DNA of 64,000 nt from Acholoe squamosa. Taxonomy: Eukaryota; Annelida; Polychaeta; Phyllodocida; Polynoidae. Where the stretch lies: NCBI GenBank assembly GCA_949317995.1, contig OX439035.1, positions 4,339,227 through 4,403,226 of the forward strand. Direction: 5' to 3'. The notes beneath the pieces were generated by a model. The model did no database searches and had not been told where the DNA came from. It saw nothing but the letters and a program-made list of their open reading frames with translations. How positions within the stretch are numbered: position 1 is the first letter of the stretch; each line of letters opens with the position of its first letter. A program made the translations under genes and the position numbers. Of this stretch, positions 1-52,504 are shown piece after piece.

Positions 1-3000
1 TCCTGCACATTCTGCAGCTATCTCCTGGGACTTGAGAATATCTGCAAGATGTTCATTCACACTTTTAACCTCTTCTGAATCAAATTTGAGTTGATTCTCA
101 GTTGGAAATAGAGGTTCTACTCCATGACTCATCATAAAGGCTGTATGCCCTGTGGCATACGCTGGTGTAGAATTCAAGCTGAACTCTACTGCCTCCAGAT
201 GCTTGTCCCAGTCTTTTTGATTCTCACTCACATAATTCCTGATCACTCCTAATATCGAGCGATTTGTTCTCTCAACAAGACCTGAGGCCTGAGGATGCAA
301 CACAGAATTGAATTGTTGTTGGATGTTGTAGGTAGCACACACTGACTCAAATACTTTACTTGCAAAGGACTTGCCATTGTCCATAACCAACCGTCTTGGT
401 GTTCCAAACCTACAAATCATCTTGTTGTAGAATGCCCTGGACACTGTGCCTGCTGTCAGATCTTTTACTGCAAAGCAAACAACAAACCTTGAATAATAGT
501 CAACAAGAACTAATATGTGTTCATTGAAATTGAGTGTCGGAGGTAATCTTTCGAGGGCATCTAGGTTCCATGTGTCGAAGGGCCTTGGACATGGGTCTCT
601 TAAGATCAGAGGAGGTTTAATTGGCCTTGTCATTCTCTTTGTTTGAGCACAGTCTTCACAAGAGGCACAATAATCAGTGACATCCTGTGACATCTTAGGC
701 CAAAAATACCTGGATCTCATTGCACCCAACAATTTGTTGACACCAAGATGACCTCCCATTGGGTCATCATGGTGTGCCATCAAAATCTTCAACCTTAGCC
801 CTTGGGGCACAACAATCAGTGCTGTAACCTCAGCCTTTGGTCCAATCGAGACATCCATGAAGTACAATATTCTGTCCACTATAGTGTAATGAGCTTCTCT
901 CAACACCAAAGCCCTAGCTTGCTTTGCATCTAGTGGCAACCTATCATTAACTAGATAGTCCCTCACACTATGACAGAAGTCATCACCCTCCTGCTCTTCC
1001 CACATCTCATCTCTAGAGATACCAACAAGTGGGAAGTGCTCTTTTGACTGCCGCTTGACCTCAGCTGTGTACTTCTTTCTTTTAAACTCTCGATGTGGTG
1101 CGTTCTCAGCTCTTAGCACTGCTAGATCCATTAAATCTGGACCAAACCACATATGCTCCTCCTGTTGAATCAAATCATGTTGTGGGCTAATCTTATCACT
1201 GAAAGTAACCCTTTTCTTAGGATGATCTGATTTCTTCATGATCTTTTTCTTGTACCTTCTCTCTGCTCTGACTCTCCTTCTCTCCCTCTTTGGAATCCTG
1301 ACCTTTGAGGCAGGCTTGAAAGACATAAGAGACTGCATCTCACTAGTACTGATGGAACTCAGCATAGGAAATGATTCCATCATCTCCTCAATGTCATCCT
1401 GCTCATATGGCTTACCTTCCAGCCTACTCAGAGAGTCGGGAACAACATTCTCCTTGCCCTTAACATGCTCTACTTTAAATGTGAACTGTCTCAAATCAGC
1501 TGCCCATCTGATTTGCCTAGGTGACAGCTTGCTCCTTGGGTTTAATATATATTGAAGGGGTGCATGATCTGTTCTTATCAAGAACCTTTTACCCTCCAAA
1601 TACACATGCCAATGAAGACAAGCATAAACAATACCTGCTAACTCTCTATCTAAAGTTGAGTAGTTTCTTTGGGCTGGGCTGAACAACTTTGCTGTATAGG
1701 CCACTGGTCTCAGATTGTCATCCTTATCATATTGGCTCAAGGTTGCACCAATGCCATAGTCTGAGGCATCTGTTGTCACAATGAACTCCTTTCTGAAGTC
1801 AGGATATAAGAGCAGATTATTGGATACCAGAGCCCTCTTGAGATCTTCAAAAGCCTCTGTGTGTTCTTCAGTCCACTCCCACTCCTTTCCCTTCTTTGTG
1901 AGATCATACAGACATCGTGCTCTTGTGGCATAGTTGGGTATGAACTTCCTATAGAAGCCACTCATACCCAAGAACCTCCTGACATTGGTGGGATTCTTTG
2001 GTGTTTTGATATCCTTGATAGCTTGTATCTTTTCCGGATTTGGTCTGATTCCTTCCTTATTCAGGACATGGCCTAGAAATGGGACCTCAGGTGCTGCAAT
2101 AATGCACTTGGCTGGCTTAAATTTGAGCCCTGCCTTCTGGATTCTTTTCAGAACCTCACCCAAGTCTTCCAGATGTTGTTCAAATGTGTTTGAAAACACG
2201 AGAATGTCATCTATGTAACAGATACAGTTTTTGAACTGTAACCCTTTCAAGACAAGGTCAACCACCATCTGGCAACTACGAGAGGAATTCATTAATCCCA
2301 TACTCATCCTTTTGTACCTGAACTTACCAAATGGAGTTAAGAACCCTGTCTTATCTCTGCTCTTCTCTGTGATGGGAATTTGATGGAACGCCATCTGCAA
2401 ATCGAGAGCTGAAATGAAATTGGGCTGCATCTGACCCACAGCATCAATGGCATCCTCTATCTTTGGAATAGCCAGATACTGTGGCACTGTAACTGCGTTC
2501 AGATTTCGATAATCACAAACGAGCCGATGCCCTCCACTTTTCTTTGACACAAGAAAGGCAGGGCTAGACCAGCCCCAATCGTAGCTGGGTTCCAAGATTC
2601 CCAATGTTACTTGCTCATCAATATGCGCCTTCAATTGTTCTCTCCTTTTGGGTGATATCCTGAAAGGCATCTGCTGTACAGGCTTAGCCCCAGAAATCAG
2701 TTCTATCTCATGTTCTATCCAATCGGTACAACCCACCATACCATCTGGTCCTACAAAGGCTCCACAGTTCTCTCTTAGAAGGGCATCCATCCGTGCTCTC
2801 TGCTCCTTTGTCAACTTTGACCTAGAATAATCGACTGCTGGAATGAAACTGGGTTGTCCATCTTGCTTCTGTGCCCTGCTTTCAACCTGTGGCTCAAACA
2901 TTTCCATTGAAGATACCTGTATCACCTCAACGTCTCTGGACAAACTCAACGTCCCTAAAGCCGTTCCTGGCTTCACCTCAATTTCCTGGTCTGAAAGGTT

Positions 3001-4122
3001 AACAAATCTCACAGGTACAGTGCCCTCATGCACTCTCACACAGCACCTAGCTGTCCACAATCCTGTCTGTTTTGCTACCTTAAAACCTACATAAGTCAGA
3101 AACATACCTTCTTTGAAAACGTCATCCACAGGGAGGCTGCACAGCATCTCAGTATGTGCTGGCACTACCAACTTACCATGTGCCCTCACAATACTCTGGC
3201 TATTGTCCTCTTGGTCTACTTCTTTGGGTTGGTCATATACTATGCTCATACCATACTGTTTCAGGAAATCTCTGCCCAGAACTATGTCTAGTCTGAGGCC
3301 TGGGATAACATGAAATGTGACTTCATAAGGAATGCCATCAATTTTAATAACACCCCTCATGTCACAATGAGCATCTCTGACCTGACCCCCTGCAAATGTC
3401 ACACATGCACGTGAAGAGAATTCCTCTATTTTACCACCATTTGCTTTTACCTGGTTGTAATAGTCAAGACTTACACAGCTACGGTCTGCCCCAGTATCAA
3501 CAAGTGCCCGTGCACAAGTTTGACCAATGCATACCTCAACACAATTCCTCTCTGACAACAGATGTGATGCCATGTAGGCCTTACCCTCTTGGTGCTGTCG
3601 GTCTTGGCGTTCACAGATAGATGAAATCATATCCCTAGTGCATGGGCTACGAGATCCACTGACGCCCGTCGGCTCTCTCCTGGACTGGTCACGTCTCCCC
3701 TTTGGATCCTCATACGGCACATTGCCCATGGCACACTCCTGACTGGAATATAAATCATTATCATTAGAACAGCTTGTACAACGGTTGTCTACCTCAGGGT
3801 GTTCATCATCCTTATATGTCAGAATATCTGTGTCATAATCTTTCTTATACAAGAAACTATACTTTCTGTTTGAATCTAACTCAACTGCATCTTTGACCTT
3901 TACACAAGATGTCTCATTACATTTACTGGTAATATTTACCACATTATCTTTAAAATCTGTACTCTTAGTTTTAGACCTTCTATTATTCCTTCTGTTACCT
4001 CTTTTTCCTGACAAACTCGATACTTGCTTGTCAGACATACACTCTACCTTACCAGAACCTTCCCCCTCTCTTTCCCCACAGGGAGGAGGAGATTCTAGTT
4101 TTCCGACTGGTTGGCAGATGAC
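1..4122 (-). CDS. pol: Ty3/gypsy LTR retrotransposon pol polyprotein (partial, runs off left edge)
   Basis: Polyprotein of an LTR retrotransposon, read right to left. I checked the frame codon by codon: it is open without a stop from 4122 to position 1 (1,374 codons). Counting from 4122, the aspartic protease motif DTGA begins near residue 209. The reverse transcriptase motif YIDD is near 636 and an RNase H motif TDASDYG near 785. The integrase has an HHCC zinc finger (HLGVNKLL then CASCEDC) just after residue 1115. Its catalytic residues are D1188, D1248 and E1284, the last two with 35 residues between them as in the family. The order PR-RT-RH-IN with integrase last is Ty3/gypsy rather than copia. 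The frame lies at -1 relative to gag and overlaps its end. The integrase C-terminus and the second LTR lie outside the window. The lack of stops suggests a recent, possibly mobile, copy (inference). Confidence 0.95.
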
Positions 4123-5432
4123 TTATTCTCCATCTTCGCCTCCAAGCTCTGAACTTTACTCATCAGCTCAGCACAGAACCTTTTGTAGAATCCCTCATCA
4201 CTGCCACCGCTGTTGCTATTACTGCCTGAGCTCCTGCCGCTGTTTTTCTCAGTTCTGGTACCTTGATTGTTGCCCCTGCCACCATTCCTCTGATTCTTCG
4301 GAGTATAGGGTCGCTTAGGTAAAGGGCACTCCCTGAAGAAATGCCCTACCCCATGGCAATTGAAGCACCTCTGAGTGGAATCCATAGTGGCAACTGTGGT
4401 GATGTTGCGTGCCTCAACCATCTTCCTCAGCTCTGCCATCTCACGCCTGAGCCTGTCACTTTCAGACTCCCTGGGTGAAATGGATTGGGCCGCACTAATT
4501 GAAGAGTTCTGACTACCAAATGTTGCTACACCAGAGGCATACTGCTGCTTCAGCAATTTTATCTCTTGTGACTGCTGCATAGAGATGTCAGCACTCTGTT
4601 TAAGAATAGCCTGAATTTCTCTCTGATTAGCGAGGATAGACTGGTCCTTATTCATGTCAAAGTCTTCTTCAGCCTCTTTACAAATGTCTATAGCCTCTTG
4701 GAAAGTGACTGGATTGCTTTTCCGGAGTTTCTTTCTATAAGGACTAGTCACCCCCCTGATGAACGAGAAAATCATATCGGTCTCACTCAGACCCATTCGC
4801 CGGTAGGCATAGGAAGCCTGAATTATAAAGTCTTCCAACTCCTGATCTGGCCTCATTGATAACCTAGACAACCTTTCAAACTCAGCATTAGTCACCTTGG
4901 TAAAATTGTCTAGAAAGGCTTTCCTCACCTCAGCCCATGTGGCTTTGTCCTTCACCTTGCTGACTATGTACCAGTCTCTAGCTGGGCCCTCAAGATAGGT
5001 AGGAAAAATCCTAAGAAGCTCGGCATCAATATTCATAAGACCTGGCACCTTTACATAGCGTTCAAAATCTTCCATCCATATTGATGGATCCATATTAGCA
5101 CTGTTCTTGAAATTACTTGGTGGTTTGGCATATGCTGACCTGCTCCCTAAATGATAGACATTCGGTCTATCACCCTGGTCTTGACCTTGACCTTGGCCCT
5201 GACCTTGACCTTGGCCCTGGCCTTGACCTTGACCTTGGCCCTGGCCCAAAGCATTGATCTCCCCCCTCTGCCTCTCAAACAATTGTTCTATTTGTTGCTC
5301 TGTTCTTTGCTCCATACTTTGAACATTGTGTTCAAACATCTGAGCTATGGCTTGATATAGACCTTGGATATTGGCATCTTCAAGATTTTGACCAAAGATC
5401 CTGCCAGATCTTAATTCTCTATTTTGTGACAT
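4095..5432 (-). CDS. gag: Ty3/gypsy retrotransposon Gag protein (445 aa)
   Basis: Structural protein of the same element, expected to assemble cytoplasmic particles and bind element RNA. The start is the first ATG after the LTR and primer-binding region (minus strand, 5432). The N-terminal third has a Gln/Gly dipeptide run coded by a 6-bp tandem repeat. A retrotransposon-Gag capsid-like region follows, with the stretch YLEGPARDWY and downstream helices. A single CCHC zinc knuckle (C-X2-C-X4-H-X4-C, RCFNCHGVGHFFREC) sits at residues 356-369, followed by a basic, Ser/Asn/Gly-rich tail. The frame is complete with no stop. Pol begins in the -1 frame 8 codons before the gag stop, so Pol would need a ribosomal frameshift or another recoding route. 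Confidence 0.93.
   Translation of the reverse strand: MSQNRELRSGRIFGQNLEDANIQGLYQAIAQMFEHNVQSMEQRTEQQIEQLFERQRGEINALGQGQGQGQGQGQGQGQGQGQGQDQGDRPNVYHLGSRSAYAKPPSNFKNSANMDPSIWMEDFERYVKVPGLMNIDAELLRIFPTYLEGPARDWYIVSKVKDKATWAEVRKAFLDNFTKVTNAEFERLSRLSMRPDQELEDFIIQASYAYRRMGLSETDMIFSFIRGVTSPYRKKLRKSNPVTFQEAIDICKEAEEDFDMNKDQSILANQREIQAILKQSADISMQQSQEIKLLKQQYASGVATFGSQNSSISAAQSISPRESESDRLRREMAELRKMVEARNITTVATMDSTQRCFNCHGVGHFFRECPLPKRPYTPKNQRNGGRGNNQGTRTEKNSGRSSGSNSNSGGSDEGFYKRFCAELMSKVQSLEAKMENKSSANQSEN
5177..5252. repeat. Hexanucleotide repeat inside gag (Gln-Gly run)
   Basis: Tandem CCTTGA/CCTTGG/CCCTGA hexamers on the plus strand encode alternating Gly-Gln on the minus strand. The unit length keeps the reading frame, so copy number can vary without breaking Gag. 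Confidence 0.85.
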
Positions 5433-5454
5433 TTTGAATTTGTGAGTAACCTAT

Positions 5455-8070: not shown

Positions 8071-8110
8071 ATGGCTGGACGTCAAACTCAGCCTGAGATT
8101 CTCAAACCAG
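8071..8110 (+). CDS. STOM-like: Stomatin-family gene, candidate alternative first coding exon 1a
   Basis: ATG in good context (CACAACATGG) opens 13 codons, MAGRQTQPEILKP, plus one extra base, then a consensus donor GTAAGAAG. The exon ends in phase 1, matching the acceptors at 37514 and 37690, so the join reads ...ILKP-D/E... in frame. The ending ILKP is shared with the independent candidate first exon at 19117, which strongly supports both. It would supply a short cytoplasmic N-terminal tail before the membrane hairpin. The intron to exon 2a would be 29.4 kb. A TATA-like element lies upstream. No transcript evidence is available to me. Confidence 0.72.
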
Positions 8111-8117
8111 GTAAGAA

Positions 8118-8290
8118 GTTAGTAGTAGCCTAAAGTAAGGCCTAAACTTAGCCTAGGTAAAGCTTAGAACTTCTACTCAGCCTATGTAAAGATAGTAGTA
8201 GCCTAAAGTAAGGCCTAAAACTTAGCCTGGGTAAATCTTAGAACTTCTACTCAGCCTATGTAAAGCCTAGCTAAAACTTCTACCTGAGGT
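8118..8290. repeat. 73-bp tandem duplication just after exon 1a
   Basis: The segment with AGTAGTAGCCTAAAGTAAGG recurs 73 bp later (8121 and 8194), followed by a partial third stretch ending CAGCCTATGTAAAGCC. Confidence 0.8.
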
Positions 8291-16019: not shown

Positions 16020-17346
16020 GTCGGTGCAGGGGTAGCCTTACACCCATAGTCCACCTGGCCACTGTCACAGCACTGACACATGATGCCACAAGGTGCAGGG
16101 GTAGCCTTAAACCCATAGTCCACCTGGCCACTGTCACAGCACTGACAAATGATGCCACAAGGTGCAGGGGTAGTCTTAAACCCATAGTCCACCTGGCCAC
16201 TGTCACAGCACTGACACATGATGCCACAAGGTGCAGAGGTAGCCTTAAACCCATAGTCCACCTGACCACTGTCACAGCACTGACATATGATTCCACAAGG
16301 TGCACGGGTAGTCTTAAACCCATAGTCCACCTGGCCACTGTCACAGCACTGACACATGATGCCACAAGGTGCAGGGGTAGCCTTACACCCATAGTCCACC
16401 TGGCTACTGTCACAGCACTGACACATGATGCCACATGATGCCACAAGGTGCAAGGGTAGCCTTACACCCATAGTCCACCTGGCCACTGTCACAGCACTGA
16501 CACATGATGCCACAAGGTGCAGAGGTAGCCTTACACCCATAGTCCACCTGACTACTGTCACAGCACTGACAAATGATGCCACAAGGTGCAGGGGTAGTCT
16601 TAAACCCATAGTCCACCTGGCCACTGTCACAGCACTGACACATGATGCCACAAGGTGCAGAGGTAGCCTTAAACCCATAGTCCACCTGACCACTGTCACA
16701 GCACTGACATATGATTCCACAAGGTGCACGGGTAGTCTTAAACCCATAGTCCACCTGGCTACTGTCACAGCACTGACACATGATGCCACAAGGTGCAGGG
16801 GTAGTCTTACACCCATAGTCCACCTGGCCACTGTCACAGCACTGACACATGATGCCACAAGGTGCAGAGGTAGCCTTAAACCCATAGTCCACCTGGCCAC
16901 TGTCACAGCACTGACACATGATGCCACAAGGTGCAAGAGTAGTCTTAAACCCATAGTCCACCTGGCCACTGTCACAGCACTGACACATGATGCCACAAGG
17001 TGCAGGGGTAGCCTTAAACCCATAGTCCACCTGACCACTGTCACAGCACTGACACATGATGCCACAAGGTGCAGGGGTAGCCTTACACCTGTAGTCCACC
17101 TGACCACTGTCACAGCACTGACACATGATGCCACAAGGTGCAGAGGTAGCCTTACACCCATAGTCCACCTGGCCACTGTCACAGCACTGACACATGATGC
17201 CACAAGGTGCAAGATTAGTCTTAAACCCATAGTCCACCTGGCCACTGTCACATCACTGACACATGATGCCACAAGGTGCAGAGGTAGCCTTAAACCCATA
17301 GTCCACCTGGCCACTGTCACAGCACTGACATATGATGCCACAAGAT
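16020..17346. repeat. 69-bp minisatellite (about 19 copies)
   Basis: Units such as GGTGCAGGGGTAGCCTTAAA followed by CCCATAGTCCACCTGGCCAC and TGTCACAGCACTGACACATG. Because 69 is divisible by three, several frames stay open on both strands, giving spurious frames of 443, 307 and 275 aa. A 10-bp internal duplication near 16430 switches frame in the longest one, which a protein gene under selection would not tolerate. The 3-periodicity comes from the unit length. I do not call a gene. Confidence 0.95.
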
Positions 17347-19116: not shown

Positions 19117-19177
19117 ATGTCGACCAAGGATGCCAGGCCCCAGTCGGGGGATCACACGGTGCAAATACTAAAGCCAG
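19117..19177 (+). CDS. STOM-like: Stomatin-family gene, candidate alternative first coding exon 1b
   Basis: ATG followed by 20 codons, MSTKDARPQSGDHTVQILKP, and one extra base, then donor GTATGTG. It ends in phase 1, the same as exons 1a and 1c, and matches both hairpin exons. The last residues QILKP parallel EILKP of exon 1a, while the codons differ (CTAAAGCCA against CTCAAACCA), as expected for an old duplicated exon kept by selection. It gives a longer, more polar cytoplasmic tail. A promoter-like motif cluster lies upstream. The alternative, a chance ORF, is unlikely because of the shared ending, phase and donor. Confidence 0.75.
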
Positions 19178-19586
19178 GTATGTGTTTAGAGCTATGTTAT
19201 GGTGTTGGATCCCGGTGTTGGATATCAGATGACATGTCCCAAGGTTCTCCCAGAGGAGAGGCAGAGTAGGGAGAAGGAGGCCGGGGAGGGGCGGGGCTGC
19301 TGACGGGGAACGCAGGCAGGAGGTGCCGGGAGCAGCCTGGGGCAGCGCCCGGTATCCAGAGTGAGTGAGTGAGTGAGTCAGTGCTATGTTTACCCTGCTC
19401 TTTAAATGTGATCAGTCAGTGTCCCATTCACACCCCGGGATTCACACAGACCGCAGTGGACTGTTTATCTTGCTGTGCACCTCCCCATATTGCACACTTC
19501 TTGGTCTGCAGCAATACAAAAAAATGTTGCATGCTGTGCCCTATTTTCTTTCTGCGCCCCCCCCCCCCACCCTAACCTGGTGAGCA

Positions 19587-20042: not shown

Positions 20043-21265
20043 GTGACCAGTGGTGAAGTAGCAGCATGGTGGCCTAGTACTGACAGACTGTATTTTATAT
20101 CACTGCCCCATGCAGCATCCAGCACTACAACTGTAGTAGGGCTACCCTGCAGGGCACCTCCCCCCACTGTCTGTCTCTCACATTTACTCACTCACTCACT
20201 ACTGCCTCTCTAGTGCTGCTTATACTACCCTCCCAAATCCACAACAACTAGTGTAAAATCCTGCGTTTAAGCCAAGGCTTAAGGAATGGTTTTCCCTGAT
20301 TTCAGGGATTTTCAGGTTCCAATTCCCTAAAAAAAGAAATCCTTGTGTTCATGGTAACATAGCCAAAAAAATAGATTTTTTTTTTTACTAATTCTTTTAG
20401 GGGTAACTTAATTGCCATAAACTACAACTACAACTGTAAGAAACAGATTCCGGATTTTTCACAAGTGTCATAGGAGGTTCTACTGCTAATTGGTTAATAT
20501 TGAAGGCCAGCTATATTCCTGACATCGTGAGGTTTAATTTGATACCAAATATGCCTATATTCCGAAAATATCTGATATATTTTACAATTTTTGTAAAAAA
20601 AAATTAAAAAATTAGGGTCGGTCGGGATACCTGAACACAATTTTTTTTTAGGCCTTATTATATGCATGATTATACAATACAGAAAGGGTATCTTATGCTA
20701 GCCTGTATTCTATAGATGCAATATAAATCATAAGGGTCATTTGTTGTATCATCATGTCACTTTTACTAGGGGTAATCTGTGCTGGTGGTATCACCTTGCA
20801 CTCTCAATGTATAGTCAATCTTGTGGTATGATAGTAGGGGTGATTGGGGCTGGGTGTTGGTGTGCTATGATATAAGGATTATGTGGGTAGTGTTGGGATA
20901 TTAAGTACATGAAGGGGGCTCTATAAATTCCAGGGAATAACCACACCTGGGTATAAGCTGCACCCCAACATTGGGTAGAGCTGAAAAAGCTGAACCAGTG
21001 TTTTGATTCATGTATAAGCTGCAGCTTATACATCTGAATTTACAGCACACTTCCATTGTACAAGTTCTGATCCCGGAATCTCTCGCAATATTTCTTATTG
21101 GCCTTGGTATGATGTTGGCTGTCCTGTTAAGGACCCTGGGGATCGGCTACTGGTAATAGGGACACATTATGTCATCTAGAACAGTGCCATTGATTATAGA
21201 CTCATAGGACATCAAGTCAGCATGCATTTAGTATGGTACTGTAGATCCATGCATGTAAGGTGCCG
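20043..21265. other. Intronic stretch with decayed repeats, no gene seen
   Basis: 20280-20650 is a second copy of the repeat ending TTAGGGTCGGTCGGGAT (partner at 10140). 20930-21055 carries GTATAAGCTGCACC and CTGCAGCTTATACAT pieces of a TA-type MITE. Nothing coding is supported. Confidence 0.6.
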
Positions 21266-22702
21266 CTTCTTAAATGCCTTAGATTGGTGAGTCAATTTGT
21301 CAGGGCTACTTAAATGCCCTAGATTGGTGAGTGGACTCCACAGGGCTACTTAAATGCCTTAGATTGGTGAGTGGACTCAACAGGGCTACTTAAATGCCTT
21401 AAATTGGTGAGTGGACTCCCCAGGGCTACTTAAATGCCCTAGATTGGTGAGTGGACTCCCCAGGGTTACTTAAATGCCTTAGATTGGTGAGTGGACTCCC
21501 CAGGGCTACTTAACTGCCTTAGATTGGTGAGTGGACTCCCCAGGGCTACTTAAATGCCTTAAATAGGTGAGTTGACTCCCCAGGGCTACTTAACTGCCTT
21601 AAATAGGTGAGTTGACTCCCCAGGGCTACTTAATGCCTTAAATAGGTGAGTTGACTCCCCAGGGCTACTTAAATGCCTTAGATTGGTGAGTGGACTCCCC
21701 AGGGCTACTTAAATGCCTTAAATAGGTGAGTTGACTCCCCAGGGCTACTTAAATGCCTTAGATTGGTGAGTGGACTCCCCAGGGCTACTTACCTGCCTTA
21801 GATTGGTGAGTGGACTCCCCAGGGCTACTGACCTGCCTTAGATTGGTGAGTGGACTCCCCAGGGCTACTTACCTGCCTTAGATTGGTGAGTGGACTCCCC
21901 AGGGCTACTTAAATGCCTTAAATAGGTGAGTTGACTCCCCAGGGCTACTTAACTGCCTTAGGTTGGTGAGTTGACTCCCCAGGGCTACTTAAATGCCTTA
22001 GATTGGTGAGTGGACTCCCCAGGGCTACTTAAATGCCTTAGATTGGTGAGTGGACTCGCCAGGGCTACTGAAATGCCTTAGATTGGTGAGTGGACTCGCC
22101 AGGGCTACTTAAATGCCTTAGATTGGTGAGTGGACTCCCCAGGGCTACTTAACTGCCTTAGGTTGGTGAGTGGACTCCCCAGGGCTACTTTACTGCCTTA
22201 GGTTGGTGAGTGGACTCCCCAGGGCTACTTAAATGCCTTAGATTGGTGAGTGGACTCCCCAGGGCTACTTAACTGCCTTAGATCGGTGAGTGGACTCCCC
22301 AGGGCTACTTAAATGCCTTAGATTGGTGAGTGGACTCTCCAGGGCTACTTAAATGCCTTAGGTTGGTGAGTGGACTCGCCAGGGCTATTTAAATGCCTTA
22401 GATTGGTGAGTGGACTCCCCAGGGCTACTTACCTGCCTTAGATTGGTGAGTGGACTCCCCAGGGCTACTTAAATGCCTTAGGTTGGTGAGTGGACTCCCC
22501 AGGGCTACTTAAATGCCTTAGGTTGGTGAGTGGACTCGCCAGGGCTATTTAAATGCCTTAGATTGGTGAGTGGACTCGTCAGGGCTACTTAAATGCCTTA
22601 GGTTGGTGAGTGGACTCCCCAGGCCTACTTAACTGCCTTAGGTTGGTGAGTGGACTCCCCAGGGCTACTTAAATGCCTCACTGAGATGAGTCGGCTCTCC
22701 AC
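21266..22702. repeat. 40-bp minisatellite (about 36 copies)
   Basis: Unit AGGGCTACTTAAATGCCTTA + GATTGGTGAGTGGACTCCCC with variants (AAATAGGTGAGTTGACT, GGTTGGTGAG, AACTGCC). Lengths are almost perfectly regular. Each unit contains a donor-like GGTGAGT and an acceptor-like CTCCCCAGGG about 10 bp later. It lies within the intron after exon 1b. Confidence 0.97.
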
Positions 22703-29311: not shown

Positions 29312-31284
29312 TCTTACAGCACATGTACACAGACCCAAAAAGGAGGGAATATAGGGTAAAGATACTTAAAGCACATGTACACAGACCCAAAAAGGAGGGT
29401 ATATAGAGTAAAGATACTTAAAGCACATGTACATAGATCCAAAAAGGAGTGAATATAGGGTAAAGATACTTAAAGCACATGTACATAGACCCAAAAAGTA
29501 GTGAATATAGGGTAAAGATACTTAAAGTACATGTACACAGTCCCAAAAAGGAGGGAATATAGAGTAAAGATACTTAAAGCACATGTACACAGACCCAAAA
29601 AGGAGGGAATATAGGGTAAAGATACCTAAAGCACATGTACACAGATCCAAAAAGGAGTGAATATAGGGTAAAGATACTTAAAGCACATGTACACAGACCC
29701 AAATAGGAGGGAATATAGGGTAAAGATACTTAAAGCACATGTACACGGATACAAAAAGGAGTGAATATAGGGTAAAGATACTTAAAGCACATGTACTCAG
29801 TCCCAAAAAGGAGTGAATATAGGGTAAAGATACTTAAAGCACATGTACACAGACCCAAAAAGGAGTGAATATAGGGTAAGGATACTTAAAGCACATGTAT
29901 ACGGATCCAAAAAGGAGTGAATATAGGGTAAAGATACTTAAAGCACATGTACATGGATCCAAAAAGGAGTGAATATAGGGTAAAGATACTTAAAGCACAT
30001 GTACACAGTCCCAAAAAGGAGGGAATATAGGGTAAAGATACTTAAAGCACATGTACACAGGCCCAAAAAGGAGTGAATATAGGGTAAAGATACTTAAAGC
30101 ACATGTACACCGACCCAAAAAGGAGTGAATATAGGGTAAAGATACTTAAAGCACATGTACACAGTCCCAAAAAGTAGTGAATATAGGGTAAAGATACTTA
30201 AAGCACATGTACACAGTCCCAAAAAGGAGTGAATATAGGGTAAAGATACTTAAAGCACATGTACATGGATCCAAAAAAGAGTGAATATAGGGTAAAGATA
30301 CTTAAAGCACATGTACACAGTCCCAAAAAGGAGGGAATATAGGGTAAAGATACTTAAAGCACATGTACACAGTCCCAAAAAGGAGTGAATATAGGGTAAA
30401 GATACTTAAAGCACATGTACACAGTCCCAAAAAGGAGTGAATATAGGGTAAAGATACTTAAAGCACATGTACACAGACCCAAAAAGGAGTGAATATAGGG
30501 TAAAGATACTTAAAGCACATGTACACAGACCCAAAAAAGAGTGAATATAGGGTAAAGATACTTAAAGCACATGTACACGGACCCAAAAAGGAGTGAATAT
30601 AGGGTAAAGATACTTATAGCACATGTACATGGATCCAAAAAGGAGTGAATATAGGGTAAAGATACTTAAAGCACATGTACACAGATCCAAAAAGGAGTGA
30701 ATATAGGGTAAAGATACTTAAAGCACATGTACACGGATACAAAAAGGAGTGAATATAGGGTAAAGATACTTAAAGCACATGTACACGGATCCAAAAAGGA
30801 GTGAATATAGGGTAAAGATACTTAAAGCACATGTACACGGATACAAAAAGGAGTGAATATAGGGTAAAGATACTTAAAGCACATGTACATGGATACAAAA
30901 AGGAGTGAATATAGGGTAAAGATACTTAAAGCACATGTACATGGATCCAAAAAGGAGTGAATATAGGGTAAAGATACTTAAAGCACATGTACATGGATCC
31001 AAAAAGGAGTGAATATAGGGTAAAGATACTTAAAGCACATGTACATGGATACAAAAAGGAGTGAATATAGGGTAAAGATACTTAAATCACATGTACATGG
31101 ATCCAAAAAGGAGTGAATATAGGGTAAAGATACTTAAAGCACATGTACACGGATCCAAAAAGGAGTGAATATAGGGTAAAGATACTTAAAGCACATGTAC
31201 ACGGATCCAAAAAGGAGTGAATACAGGGTAAAGATACTTAAAGCACATGTACATGGATCCAAAAAGGAGTGAATATAGGGTAAA
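29312..31284. repeat. 52-bp minisatellite (about 38 copies)
   Basis: Unit AAGCACATGTACACAGACCC + AAAAAGGAGTGAATATAGGG + TAAAGATACTTA. Variation is concentrated in the CACAGACCC/CATGGATCC/CACGGATAC segment. The array is nearly 2 kb long. The minus-strand frames over its right end are artefacts. Confidence 0.97.
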
Positions 31285-37513: not shown

Positions 37514-37635
37514 ATGACGGGATTGACGCTGGTGGTGAGGGCGCGTGCGACTCGTGCTGCGGGACGGTGTTGAAGATCGTCAGCATAATCTGCATCTTCC
37601 TCACCTTCCCCATCACCCTATGCTTCTGCTTCAAG
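37514..37635 (+). CDS. STOM-like: Stomatin-family gene, hairpin exon 2a (mutually exclusive candidate)
   Basis: 122-nt exon between acceptor TTTCACACAG and donor GTATGTTG; starts in phase 1 and ends in phase 0. With the incoming G it codes 41 residues: an acidic start (DDGIDAGGEGA), a Cys cluster CDSCCG, then the hydrophobic hairpin with the central motif LTFPIT and the end LCFCFK. In stomatins this segment inserts as a monotopic hairpin in the inner membrane leaflet, a conserved proline kinks it, and neighbouring cysteines are palmitoylated (family knowledge). It is followed 54 nt later by exon 2b of the same length, phase and fold. 29 of 41 residues match exon 2b, with 11 silent differences among the shared codons. 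That pattern indicates an old duplication under purifying selection. Confidence 0.9.
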
Positions 37636-37689
37636 GTATGTTGTCAAAAACTACTTAAGGCTAATCTAAATCATATTTGTGATTTACAG

Positions 37690-37811
37690 AGGGCAATTTC
37701 GAAACGGAGGAGGAAGGCTGCTGCGACTCCTGTTGCGGGGTCACGTTGAAGATCGTCAGTATTATTGTGATCTTCCTGACCTTCCCCATAACTCTGTGCT
37801 TTTGCTTCAAG
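37690..37811 (+). CDS. STOM-like: Stomatin-family gene, hairpin exon 2b (mutually exclusive candidate)
   Basis: 122-nt exon between acceptor TGTGATTTACAG and donor GTGAGTCG, starting in phase 1 and ending in phase 0 like exon 2a. Codes EGNFETEEEGC, the identical CDSCCG cluster, then LKIVSII and IFLTFPITLCFCFK as in 2a. Differences lie in the first eight residues, position 11, a TV/VT swap and one C-to-V change in the hydrophobic arm. If both exons were spliced together, the frame of 2b shifts and stops at TGA 37747-37749, so only one can be used per functional mRNA. The 54-nt spacer places any branch point about 30 nt from the 2a donor, a classic steric bar to joining 2a to 2b. Confidence 0.9.
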
Positions 37812-40785: not shown

Positions 40786-42163
40786 GTTCCTGTGGAAGAA
40801 TAAGGAGTCCCAGCGTTAACCCTATGGGGCCTGTTCCTGTGGTAGAATAAGGAGTCCCAATGTTAACCCTATAGGGCCTGTTCCTGTTGTAGAATAAGGA
40901 GTCCCAGTGTTAACCCTATGGGGCCTGTTCCTGTGGTAGAATAAGGAGACATAGTGTTAACCCTATGGGTCCTGTTCCTGTGGTAGAATAAGGAGTCCCA
41001 GTGTTAACCTATGGGGCCTGTTCCTGTGGTAGAATAAGGAGTCCCAGTGTTAACCCTATGGGGCCTGTTCCTGTGATAGAATAAGGAGTCCCAATGTTAA
41101 CCCTATGTGGCCTGTTGCTGTGGTGGAATAAGGAGTCCCAGTGTTAACCCTATGGGGCCTGTTCCTGTGGTAGAATAAGGAGTCCCAGTGTTAACCCTAT
41201 AGGGCCTGTTCCTGTGGTAGAATAAGGAGTCCCAATGTTAACCCTATGGGGCCTGTTGCTGTGGTAGAATAAGGAGTCCCAATGTTAACCCTATGGGAAC
41301 TGTTGCTGTGGTAGAATAAGGAGTCCCAATGTTAACCCTATGGGGCCTGTTGCTGTGGTAAAATAAGGAGTCCCAGTGTTAACCCTATGGGGCCTGTTAC
41401 TGTGGTAGAATAAGGAGTCCCAATGTTAACCTTATGGGAACTGTTGCTGTGGTAGAATAAGGAGTCCCAATGTTAACCCTATGGGGCCTGTTGCTGTGGT
41501 AAAATAAGGAGTCCCAATGTTAACCCTATGGGAACTGTTGCTGTGGTAGAATAAGGAGTCCCAATGTTAACCCTATGGGGCCTGTTGCTGTGGTAGAATA
41601 AGGAGTCCCAATGTTAACCCTATGGGAACTGTTGCTGTGGTAGAATAAGGAGTCCCAATGTTAACCCTATGGGGCCTGTTGCTGTGGTAAAATAAGGAGT
41701 CCCAGTGTTAACCCTATGGGGCCTGTTCCTGTGGTAGAATAAGGAGTCCCAATGTTAACCCTATGGGGCCTGTTGCTGTGATAGAATAAGGAGTCCCAGT
41801 GTTAACCCTATGGGACCTGTTACTGTGGTAGAATAAGGAGTCCCAATGTTAACCTTATGGGGCCTGTTCCTGTGGTAAAATAAGGAGTCCCAGTGTTAAC
41901 CCTATGGGGTCTGTTCCTGTGATAGAATAAGTAGTCCCAGTGTTAACCCTATGGGGCCTGTTGCTGTGGTAGAATAAGGAGTCCCAGTGTTAACCCTATG
42001 GGGCCTGTTACTGTGGTAGAATAAGGAGTCCCAGTGTTAACCCTATGGGGCCTGTTCCTGTGGTAAAATAAGGAGTCCCAATGTTAACTCTATGGGGCCT
42101 GTTGCTGTGGTAGAATAAGGAGTCCCAGTGTTAACCCTATGGGGCCTGTTCCTGTGGTAGATA
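40786..42163. repeat. 47-bp minisatellite (about 29 copies) with 94-bp higher-order part
   Basis: Unit CCTGTTCCTGTGGTAGAATA + AGGAGTCCCAGTGTTAACCC + TATGGGG. Between about 41290 and 41690, units with GGGAACTG alternate with units carrying GGGGCCTG, forming a dimeric higher-order repeat. Confidence 0.96.
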
Positions 42164-47093: not shown

Positions 47094-47163
47094 ATGGTTC
47101 AGGAGTACGAGCGGGCCGTCATATTCCGTCTTGGTCGTGTCCTCCCCGGCGCTCGCGGACCTG
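47094..47163 (+). CDS. STOM-like: Stomatin-family gene, exon 3 (start of SPFH domain)
   Basis: 70-nt exon between acceptor TTTATTTCCAG and donor GTAAGTCG. It starts in phase 0, matching the ends of exons 2a and 2b, and ends in phase 1. It codes MVQEYERAVIFRLGRVLPGA and then RGP(G). The stretch EYERAVIFRLGR is the diagnostic start of the stomatin/MEC-2/podocin SPFH domain, directly after the membrane hairpin, where it drives oligomerisation and partner binding at the inner membrane face. The initial Met is an internal residue here, not a start. I did not find the next exon before position 64000, so the gene should continue to the right. I cannot tell stomatin from MEC-2-like paralogues on this fragment. 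Confidence 0.93.
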
Positions 47164-51289: not shown

Positions 51290-52504
51290 GCTGCAGCTGG
51301 TGTCTGAATATATTGCATCAGTTTGTTTCAGCACCAGGTTTGGTGTCTGAATAAAGTGCATCAGTTTGTTTCAGCACCAGGTTTGGTGTCTGAATATAGT
51401 GCATCAGTTTGTTTCAGCGCCAGGTTTGGTGTCTGAATATAGTGCATCAGTTTGTTTCAGCACCAGGTTTGGTGTCTGAATATAGTGCATCAGTTTGTTT
51501 CAGCGCCAGGTTTGGTGTCTGAATATAGTGCATCTGTTTGTTTCAGCACCAGGTTTGGTGTCTGAATATAGTGCATCAGTTTGTTTCAGCACCAGGTTTA
51601 GTGTCTGAATATATTGCATCAGTTTGTTTCAGCGCCAGGTTTGGTGTCTGAATATATTGCATCAGTTTGTTTCAGCACCAGGTTTGGTGTCTGAATATAG
51701 TGCATCAGTTTGTTTCCGCGCCAGGTTTGGTGTCTGAATATATTGCATCAGTTTGTTTCAGCACCAGGTTTGGTGTCTGAATATAGTGCATCAGTTTGTT
51801 TCAGCACCAGGTTTGGTGTCTTAATATAGTGCATCAGTTTGTTTCAGCACCAGGTTTGGTGTCTGAATATAGTGCATCAGTTTGTTTCCGCGCCAGGTTT
51901 GGTGTCTGAATATAGTGCATCAGTTTGTTTCAGCACCAGGTTTGGTGTCTGAATATAGTGCATCAGTTTGTTTCAGCGCCAGGTTTGGTGTCTGAATATA
52001 GTGCATTAGTTTGTTTCAGCGCCAGGTTTGGTGTCTGAATATAGTGCATCAGTTTGTTTCAGCGCCAGGTTTGGTGTCTGAATATAGTGCATCAGTTTGT
52101 TTCAGCGCCAGGTTTGGTGTCTGAATATAGTGCATCAGTTTGTTTCAGCACCAGGTTTGGTGTCTGAATATAGTGCATCAGCTTGTTTCAGCGCCAGGTT
52201 TGGTGTCTGAATATAGTGCATCAGTTTGTTTCAGCACCAGGTTTGGTGTCTGAATATAGTGCATCAGTTTGTTTCCGCGCCAGGTTTGGTGTCTGAATAT
52301 AGTGCATCAGTTTGTTTCAGCACCAGGTTTGGTGTCTGAATATAGTGCATCAGCTTGTTTCAGCGCCAGGTTTGGTGTCTGAATATAGTGCATCAGCTTG
52401 TTTCAGCGCCAGGTTTGGTGTCTGAATATAGTGCATCAGTTTGTTTCTGTGCCAGGTTTGGTGTCTGAATATAGTGCACCAGTTTGTTTCAGCGCCAGGT
52501 TTGG
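51290..52504. repeat. 43-bp minisatellite (about 28 copies)
   Basis: Unit CAGGTTTGGTGTCTGAATAT + AGTGCATCAGTTTGTTTCAG + CAC/CGC. It starts within 30 bp of the right TTAA of the preceding MITE. Each unit has an acceptor-like TTTGTTTCAG. Confidence 0.97.

Follow-up and report, generated by a model that had tools for sequence, protein, structure and literature searches.

A stomatin gene of Acholoe squamosa, denoted as gene A, contains two pairs of tandem homologous exons, 2a/2b and 6a/6b, and mutually exclusive splicing of this one gene at two places is very probably the best explanation of its layout. In each pair the exons are homologous, stand in tandem with equal length and phase, have been retained by selection, and keep the gene in frame only when exactly one of them is used; we infer that the splicing machinery enforces this choice. 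Exon 2a or 2b would supply the membrane-proximal stretch together with the half-membrane hairpin, and exon 6a or 6b would supply 19 residues lying, by position, around the end of SPFH2.

Two tandem exon pairs in a stomatin gene

Gene A is an animal stomatin gene with an open frame and a length of about 120 kb. The genome that we searched comprises 1.48 Gb in 63 contigs, and the window, which is the whole stretch of 64,000 nucleotides analysed here, corresponds to C1:4339227-4403226, so that a position on contig C1 equals the window position plus 4339226. The exons are collected in Table 1. When translated with 2b and 6b and without a first exon, the protein has 281 residues, of which 15-269 aligned to the solved human stomatin with an E value of 8.6e-115. 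Two of the 12 possible isoforms, 2b/6b and 2a/6a, were also scanned without a first exon against Pfam Band_7 (PF01145), where they scored 129.4 and 130.1 bits at a cut-off of 23.6, with E values of 1.9e-37 and 1.2e-37, respectively.

Table 1. Exons and candidate exons of gene A. Positions are those of the window unless given on contig C1; a slash marks an exon boundary.
Feature	Position	Strand	Description
Candidate first exon 1a	C1:4333097-4333148	+	upstream of window; two possible starts
Candidate first exon 1b	8071..8110	+	MAGRQTQPEILKP-G/gtaag; yields a 294-residue protein
Candidate first exon 1c	19117..19177	+	MSTKDARPQSGDHTVQILKP-G/gtatg
Exon 2a	37514..37635	+	122 nt; ..cacag/ATGACG...TTCAAG/gtatgt; entry phase 1, exit phase 0; open frame
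2a-2b spacer	37636..37689	+	54 nt; best branch-site match CTAAT, second CTAA
Exon 2b	37690..37811	+	122 nt; ..tacag/AGGGCA...TTCAAG/gtgagt; length and phases as 2a; open frame
Exon 3	47094..47163	+	MVQEYERAVIFRLGRVLPGARGP-G, start of SPFH1; GT-AG; phase 0 in, phase 1 out; aligns to solved human stomatin
Exon 4	C1:4444698-4444780	+	downstream of window
Exon 5	C1:4448999-4449202	+	downstream of window
Exon 6a	C1:4449723-4449778	+	56 nt; AVLDEGTDPWGVRVERVEV; GT-AG; downstream of window
Exon 6b	C1:4449897-4449952	+	56 nt; HVLDEGTDPWGVKVERVEI; GT-AG; downstream of window
Exon 7	C1:4451584-4451662	+	downstream of window
Exon 8	C1:4452626-4452856	+	downstream of window

Exons 2a and 2b are confirmed as real tandem duplicates. 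The original prediction had described two exons of 122 nt that enter in phase 1, exit in phase 0 and lie 54 nt apart, and all of these figures held on the sequence. The two exons are identical at 86 of 122 nucleotides and encode the same residue in 29 of 40 whole codons, and a recount of the silent differences among these shared codons again gave 11 of 29. Once the G supplied by a candidate first exon completes the split codon, which then encodes Asp with 2a and Glu with 2b, the claimed identity of 29/41 residues is obtained as well. Chance likeness was rejected, since the local alignment of the two exons scored 110, whereas 500 shuffles averaged 16.7 and none was equal or better, and the exon peptides matched only these two exons within the window at E < 0.01. 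An assembly artefact or a recent copy was likewise rejected, as 36 of the 122 nucleotides differ and the introns are no longer similar. The similarity starts just ahead of the cysteine cluster. Of the predicted clustering of changes in the acidic approach to the membrane, the common acidic composition stood, but over their first 30 nt the two exons were alike only at chance level (429 of 500 shuffles as high), and the two approaches appear to have a composition in common rather than a demonstrable alignment. The 2a version of the intramembrane hairpin has a Cys in its first arm, and the 2b version is acidic with a CC-DSCC variant.

The second tandem pair, 6a/6b, lies beyond the window between exons 5 and 7 (window +110497 to +110726), with a spacer of 118 nt between its members. 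Both pairs combine equal lengths (122 = 122 and 56 = 56), equal phase and GT-AG sites throughout with residue similarity, 29/40 in the first pair and 16/19 in the second, where 16 of the 19 residues are common to 6a and 6b. Each pair is made up of internal exons, as opposed to terminal alternatives or duplicated genes, having acceptor and donor sites, and is flanked by exons common to all forms, although the exon upstream of 2a/2b is a candidate only. The 54-nt and 118-nt spacers are the shortest two gaps in the gene, the next shortest being 520 nt.

Any choice of one exon per pair reached the common stop codon in an open frame, and the 12 combinations (3 first exons x 2 x 2) each gave one open stomatin frame of 294-301 residues. 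The frame was broken in the four other forms that we translated, namely 2a+2b, no exon 2, 6a+6b and no exon 6. With 2a and 2b joined, translation reproduced the predicted frameshift and TGA at 37747, a position counted by hand. The mutually exclusive use that had been proposed for 2a and 2b thus gains from the equal length and phase, the frame break, the 12 of 12 open combinations and the second pair, and the exclusion itself is deduced from these features. A second pair in the same gene reduces the likelihood of a one-off accident and suggests that the gene is built for choosing between isoforms.

Elsewhere in the window, the minus strand of positions 1-5450 contains long open frames, one of 1374 residues that runs off the window end and one of 451 residues with a QG run, which we take to be of retroelement type by their reverse-transcriptase motifs. 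Minisatellites crowd the window (16023-17344, 21265-22678, 29313-31284, 40786-42161, 51298-52504 and others), their units measuring about 31-81 bases and being repeated up to about 38 times.

Spacers, reading frame and candidate first exons

In the 2a/2b spacer, the sole yTnAy match at the usual distance is CTAAT, the A of which is at intron position 29. By this motif prediction, 28 nt would separate the branch site from the first intron base of the 2a donor and 25 nt from the acceptor; intron position 34 has another CTAA, likewise a motif prediction, which is 33 nt from the donor. For human introns, the accessible text of two reports places at about 50 nt the donor-to-branch-site distance below which both sites cannot be engaged (PMC5740500, PMC7969005). 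The predicted distance of 28 or 33 nt is under this limit, which is a human calibration and may not be that of this animal. Introns of about 50 nt are routinely spliced in some animals. The 2a donor is probably too near the 2b branch site for simultaneous use, and the earlier argument from tight spacing against 2a-2b splicing is retained for its geometry, with a branch match 28 nt from the donor, and weakened in its threshold, which was borrowed from human introns.

The geometry of the second spacer is different. Three branch-site matches are found 14-32 nt before the 6a/6b acceptor, which corresponds to 85-103 nt from the donor, and three more are 56-90 nt before the acceptor, at 27, 57 and 61 nt from the donor. 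The 6a/6b pair would come under the steric limit only with an unusual, distant branch point, and steric crowding does not seem to be indicated there. Considering that the matches near the acceptor are 85-103 nt from the donor, strict exclusion of 6a and 6b probably needs another cause, and other regulation or decay of the wrong products would be required. A frame break with decay of the wrong products would apply to both pairs.

The alternative that survives best, although we consider it rather unlikely, is a loose choice in which 2a-2b joining does occur and the frameshifted poison form is lost to nonsense-mediated decay, with the pair also setting the expression level. The TGA of the joined form ends 62 nt before the next junction, and a stop at such a distance before a junction triggers nonsense-mediated decay by the usual rule. 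While the 6a/6b spacer is roomy enough for splicing, only 28 nt separate donor and branch-site match in the 54-nt spacer of 2a/2b, which is less than the limit of about 50 nt for human introns. Furthermore, differing coding sequence is maintained separately in each copy, which implies translation of both and argues against a pair kept for a poison form. In the available part of a human survey, joining reads were present in 83 of 377 clusters of mutually exclusive exons with frame-breaking lengths (PMC5740500), a precedent on the side of the loose choice.

Mutually exclusive splicing remains our preferred reading. Candidate first exons were sought in the 77.5 kb upstream, as frames that begin with ATG and run to a good donor of the required phase, and the scan gave 21 by start codon, or 14 by donor. 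Three candidates with distinct donors, 1a, 1b and 1c, end in ILKP-G/gt, a common ending that was spotted by eye. Their ILKP codons vary only silently (ATC/ATT/ATA, CTA/CTC and AAG/AAA), and in all three comparisons the last 14 exon bases with the six donor bases were matched by 0 of 300 shuffles, with the flanks at chance. In 60 first-order Markov simulations, which hold no repeats, two candidates never shared a four-residue ending. A dispersed sequence also gave a shared ending, ECSP, with 2 instances upstream and, in 224 kb, 4 on the plus strand and 3 on the minus strand, so that a shared ending by itself is no proof of first exons. In contrast with ECSP, the ILKP candidates with a start codon lie exclusively ahead of exon 2 and on the strand of the gene. 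Intron 3 contains one more ILKP-GGT match, at 80512, for which the 60 displayed bases include no start codon. In the 30 kb ahead of exon 2 in paralogue C, described below, none of the 16 generic candidates listed was alike and no first exon of ILKP type was found, and this absence speaks neither for nor against 1a, 1b and 1c. Gene A may have three promoters, each with its own short first exon. The introns after 1a, 1b and 1c have TTAG in common at positions 9-12 (8111-8122, 19178-19189 and C1:4333149-4333160; gtaagaagTTAG, gtatgtgtTTAG and gtacgttcTTAG), possibly by chance or as a common splicing signal.

With three candidate first exons whose upstream regions are unrelated, the hairpin could in principle be chosen by promoter, each of 1a, 1b and 1c being tied to one hairpin exon. 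We regard this as quite improbable, because the common end phase and G make every first exon fit both 2a and 2b, the first exons are all 18-44 kb upstream of 2a/2b, and regulated splicing would be required even so. We found no processed copy that would reveal the exon use of the mRNA: among the best candidates, to which scoring was confined, there were only exons 2b, 3 and 2a in place, and no contiguous exon 2-3 copy.

Constraint on both copies and relatives in the genome

The 2a/2b pair had been claimed to be old and under purifying selection, and three lines of evidence bear this out. First, the introns adjoining both pairs have about chance similarity, whereas the similarity of the exons was reached by 0 of 500 shuffles in either pair; a weak residual signal upstream of 2a/2b, with the acceptor removed, was equalled in 35 of 500 shuffles. 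Second, the NG86 estimates for 2a/2b were dS 1.23 and dN 0.234, and for 6a/6b the synonymous sites were saturated (pS 0.94) with dN 0.166. Third, in simulations with one copy neutral, 0 of 5000 runs remained free of stops at the identity observed, both for 2a/2b at branch divergences d of 0.45 and 0.6 and for 6a/6b at d of 0.6 and 1.0. At d 0.3, the successes per 5000 runs were 20 for 2a, 16 for 2b, 30 for 6a and 11 for 6b. Pairwise counts, which address neutrality of both copies together while the branch-divergence simulation covers the one-copy case, were 0/20000 for the 2a/2b core, 7/20000 for the whole 2a/2b exon and 0/20000 for 6a/6b. On these simulations, neutral drift of either copy is rejected near the measured divergence. 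The first seven whole codons of 2a/2b, with pN 0.59 and pS 0.74 on 4.5 synonymous sites, exhibited no clear constraint.

Four close stomatin genes were found in the genome, A and C on contig C1 and D and E on contig C12, and among these four, tandem exon pairs were seen only in A. The count leaves out a more divergent stomatin-like gene on C7 (L007/L038), more distant Band 7 matches (L005, L006, L007), weak matches at C2:103314045 and C12:28794050, and repeat-like matches on C6, C1:58984221, C2:1829824, C14 and C18. Paralogue C (C1, about 4470257 to 4554350, minus strand) is tail to tail with gene A, and it firmly has a single exon 2 (116 nt, L030) and a single exon 6. Paralogue D had a single match to exon 2 (E 0.30, L034) and a single match to exon 6 (E 7.6), both with weak scores, and paralogue E gave one weak exon-6 match (E 0.14), with no exon-2 match among the best candidates. 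Given such weak scores, and a scoring confined to the best candidates, a further copy in D or E, if diverged, could have escaped the search. In the core of 27 codons, 24 residues are common to 2a and 2b, and 17 and 18 residues are shared with C by 2a and 2b, respectively. At two sites 2a has TV, 2b has VT and C has VV, so that each copy carries a conservative change of its own.

It is highly improbable that only one exon works, its partner being a relic or a cryptic exon of rare use, since the unalignable 30 nt at the start of 2a and 2b and the pN of 0.59 against pS of 0.74 in the first seven whole codons, on very few sites, are outweighed by the rejection of neutral decay of either copy near the measured divergence, by splice sites, length and frame kept in both copies though the introns lost their similarity, and by the separate conservative changes of 2a and 2b at neighbouring sites in comparison with paralogue C.

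Several other sequences resemble parts of the gene. On the plus strand of C1, a third hairpin-exon-like copy, EEGCCDSCCGGVLKIFCVIVIVLTFPITLYFCFK (4464258-4464389; window +125032..), is followed by a shortened exon-4-like piece (4465020-4465088; window +125794..) in a seemingly unfit frame; the two look like what remains of a partial gene copy situated between A and C. The stomatin-like gene at about 61.11 Mb on C7 has Band 7 exons and its own hairpin, GPIITLVSYLLIFVTFPLSAWFVFK, which is 44% identical over 25 residues and was seen as one copy in a locus of 3.1 kb. Five loci on five contigs (L032, L033, L036, L039 and L040) hold a dispersed sequence, readable as DTIKGTYTKIISMYCLSLEQPITFCMCWK or near, that is weakly hairpin-like (E 0.1 or worse) and is probably a repeat family with a chance likeness. 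In IMG/VR viral contigs, none of 18 pattern matches was confirmed as a relative.

The encoded proteins and known systems

The accessible text of two structural reports describes human stomatin (STOM) as a 16-subunit cage (PDB 9oh9, 9wkz and others), in which two short helices are inserted halfway into the membrane with P47 at their junction (PMC12344292, PMC12407830). According to the same text, the belt has its first intramembrane element (IMH1) in residues ~20-53, the first ~20 residues bind the SPFH1/2 interface, palmitoylation is known or likely at C30, C53 and C87, and aquaporin-1 contacts the stomatin dome mainly via IMH2 (PMC12344292, PMC12407830). Human positions are given here as the chain numbering of 9oh9 minus 20, which was checked by hand on P47, C30, C53 and C87.

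Like human STOM, gene A keeps the hairpin H1/H2, the kink proline P47 and the cysteines C30, C53 and C87. In its protein, a short hydrophobic hairpin precedes the SPFH domain, and the shared Pro aligns to human P47 (9oh9, numbered by hand). By hand count, Cys is aligned at human C30, C53 and C87, the putative palmitoylation sites, with either exon 2. The aligned differences between 2a and 2b are at human positions 32, 33 and 41; beyond position 41, via the second arm to K55, 2a equals 2b. The differences before residue 15 of the translated isoform lie outside the alignment and would correspond to positions ~16-22 and 25 by simple extension of the register. An extra Cys is found near the membrane at about 25 in 2b, and inside the membrane at 41 in 2a. 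The 6a/6b differences are at human positions 176, 188 and 194, which by position only are near the end of SPFH2.

Swapping 2a for 2b would alter the first hairpin arm and the cysteines within a putative ring of 16 subunits, and the kink proline, the second arm and the three positions of palmitoylated cysteines would stay fixed. In this manner the swap may tune the contact of the ring with lipids or cargo. More speculatively, and with considerable doubt, up to 12 stomatins (3 N termini, 2 hairpins and 2 SPFH2-end versions) might co-assemble in mixed 16-subunit rings, where splicing would set the membrane belt, the lipid patch and the enclosed cargo as the swapped transmembrane exons of some channels set gating. 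Gene A presents a natural swap of the hairpin with all else constant, plus a second swap in the cytosolic part, which bears on how stomatin rings choose lipid and cargo. Comparison of the isoforms would reveal which hairpin positions matter (human 32, 33, 41 and, by extension, 25), and whether the extra cysteines, near the membrane in 2b and inside it in 2a, alter anchoring.

The original prediction knew of no stomatin with swappable hairpin exons, and none was found in a limited literature search by title and start of abstract, outside which most subscription papers fall; automatic annotation may already list such isoforms. In gene A the hairpin exon and the SPFH2-end exon each come in two versions, unlike human STOM, for which the available text of the structural reports mentions no homologous tandem pair. 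A human STOML2 event was called mutually exclusive by an RNA-seq pipeline, in a report whose accessible part does not mention homologous exons (PMC12807931). A further case within the family is C. elegans mec-2, also a stomatin gene, for which the accessible text describes a cell-specific function set by alternative splicing and isoforms proposed to work as heteromers (PMC8934639). As far as that text goes, mec-2 isoforms differ in the C terminus through an alternative 3' splice site and a cassette exon of 2,340 bp and have the stomatin and membrane domains in common, whereas gene A swaps the hairpin itself.

Outside the family, the exons of human OGDH provide a close parallel in spacing. According to the accessible part of the report, branch points of exons 4a/4b mapped at 25-41 nt from the upstream donor enforce exclusion (PMC7969005), and this range is close to the 28 nt of 2a/2b, although the OGDH branch points were mapped experimentally and those of gene A are predicted. 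OGDH is a vertebrate enzyme gene, in contrast with the stomatin gene described here. In similar length, same phase and sequence similarity, the pairs of gene A are like the exons of CadN, Mhc, tropomyosin and voltage-gated channels, judged by what is accessible of the published criteria (PMC3228551) and the human set (PMC5740500). Tandem duplicated exons are, in the available text of a further report, enriched in plasma-membrane and ion-transport genes (PMC9741552). The tandem-exon kind is thus already known and the stomatin case looks new, and with it a membrane-scaffold family would join the genes in which animals swap homologous exons.
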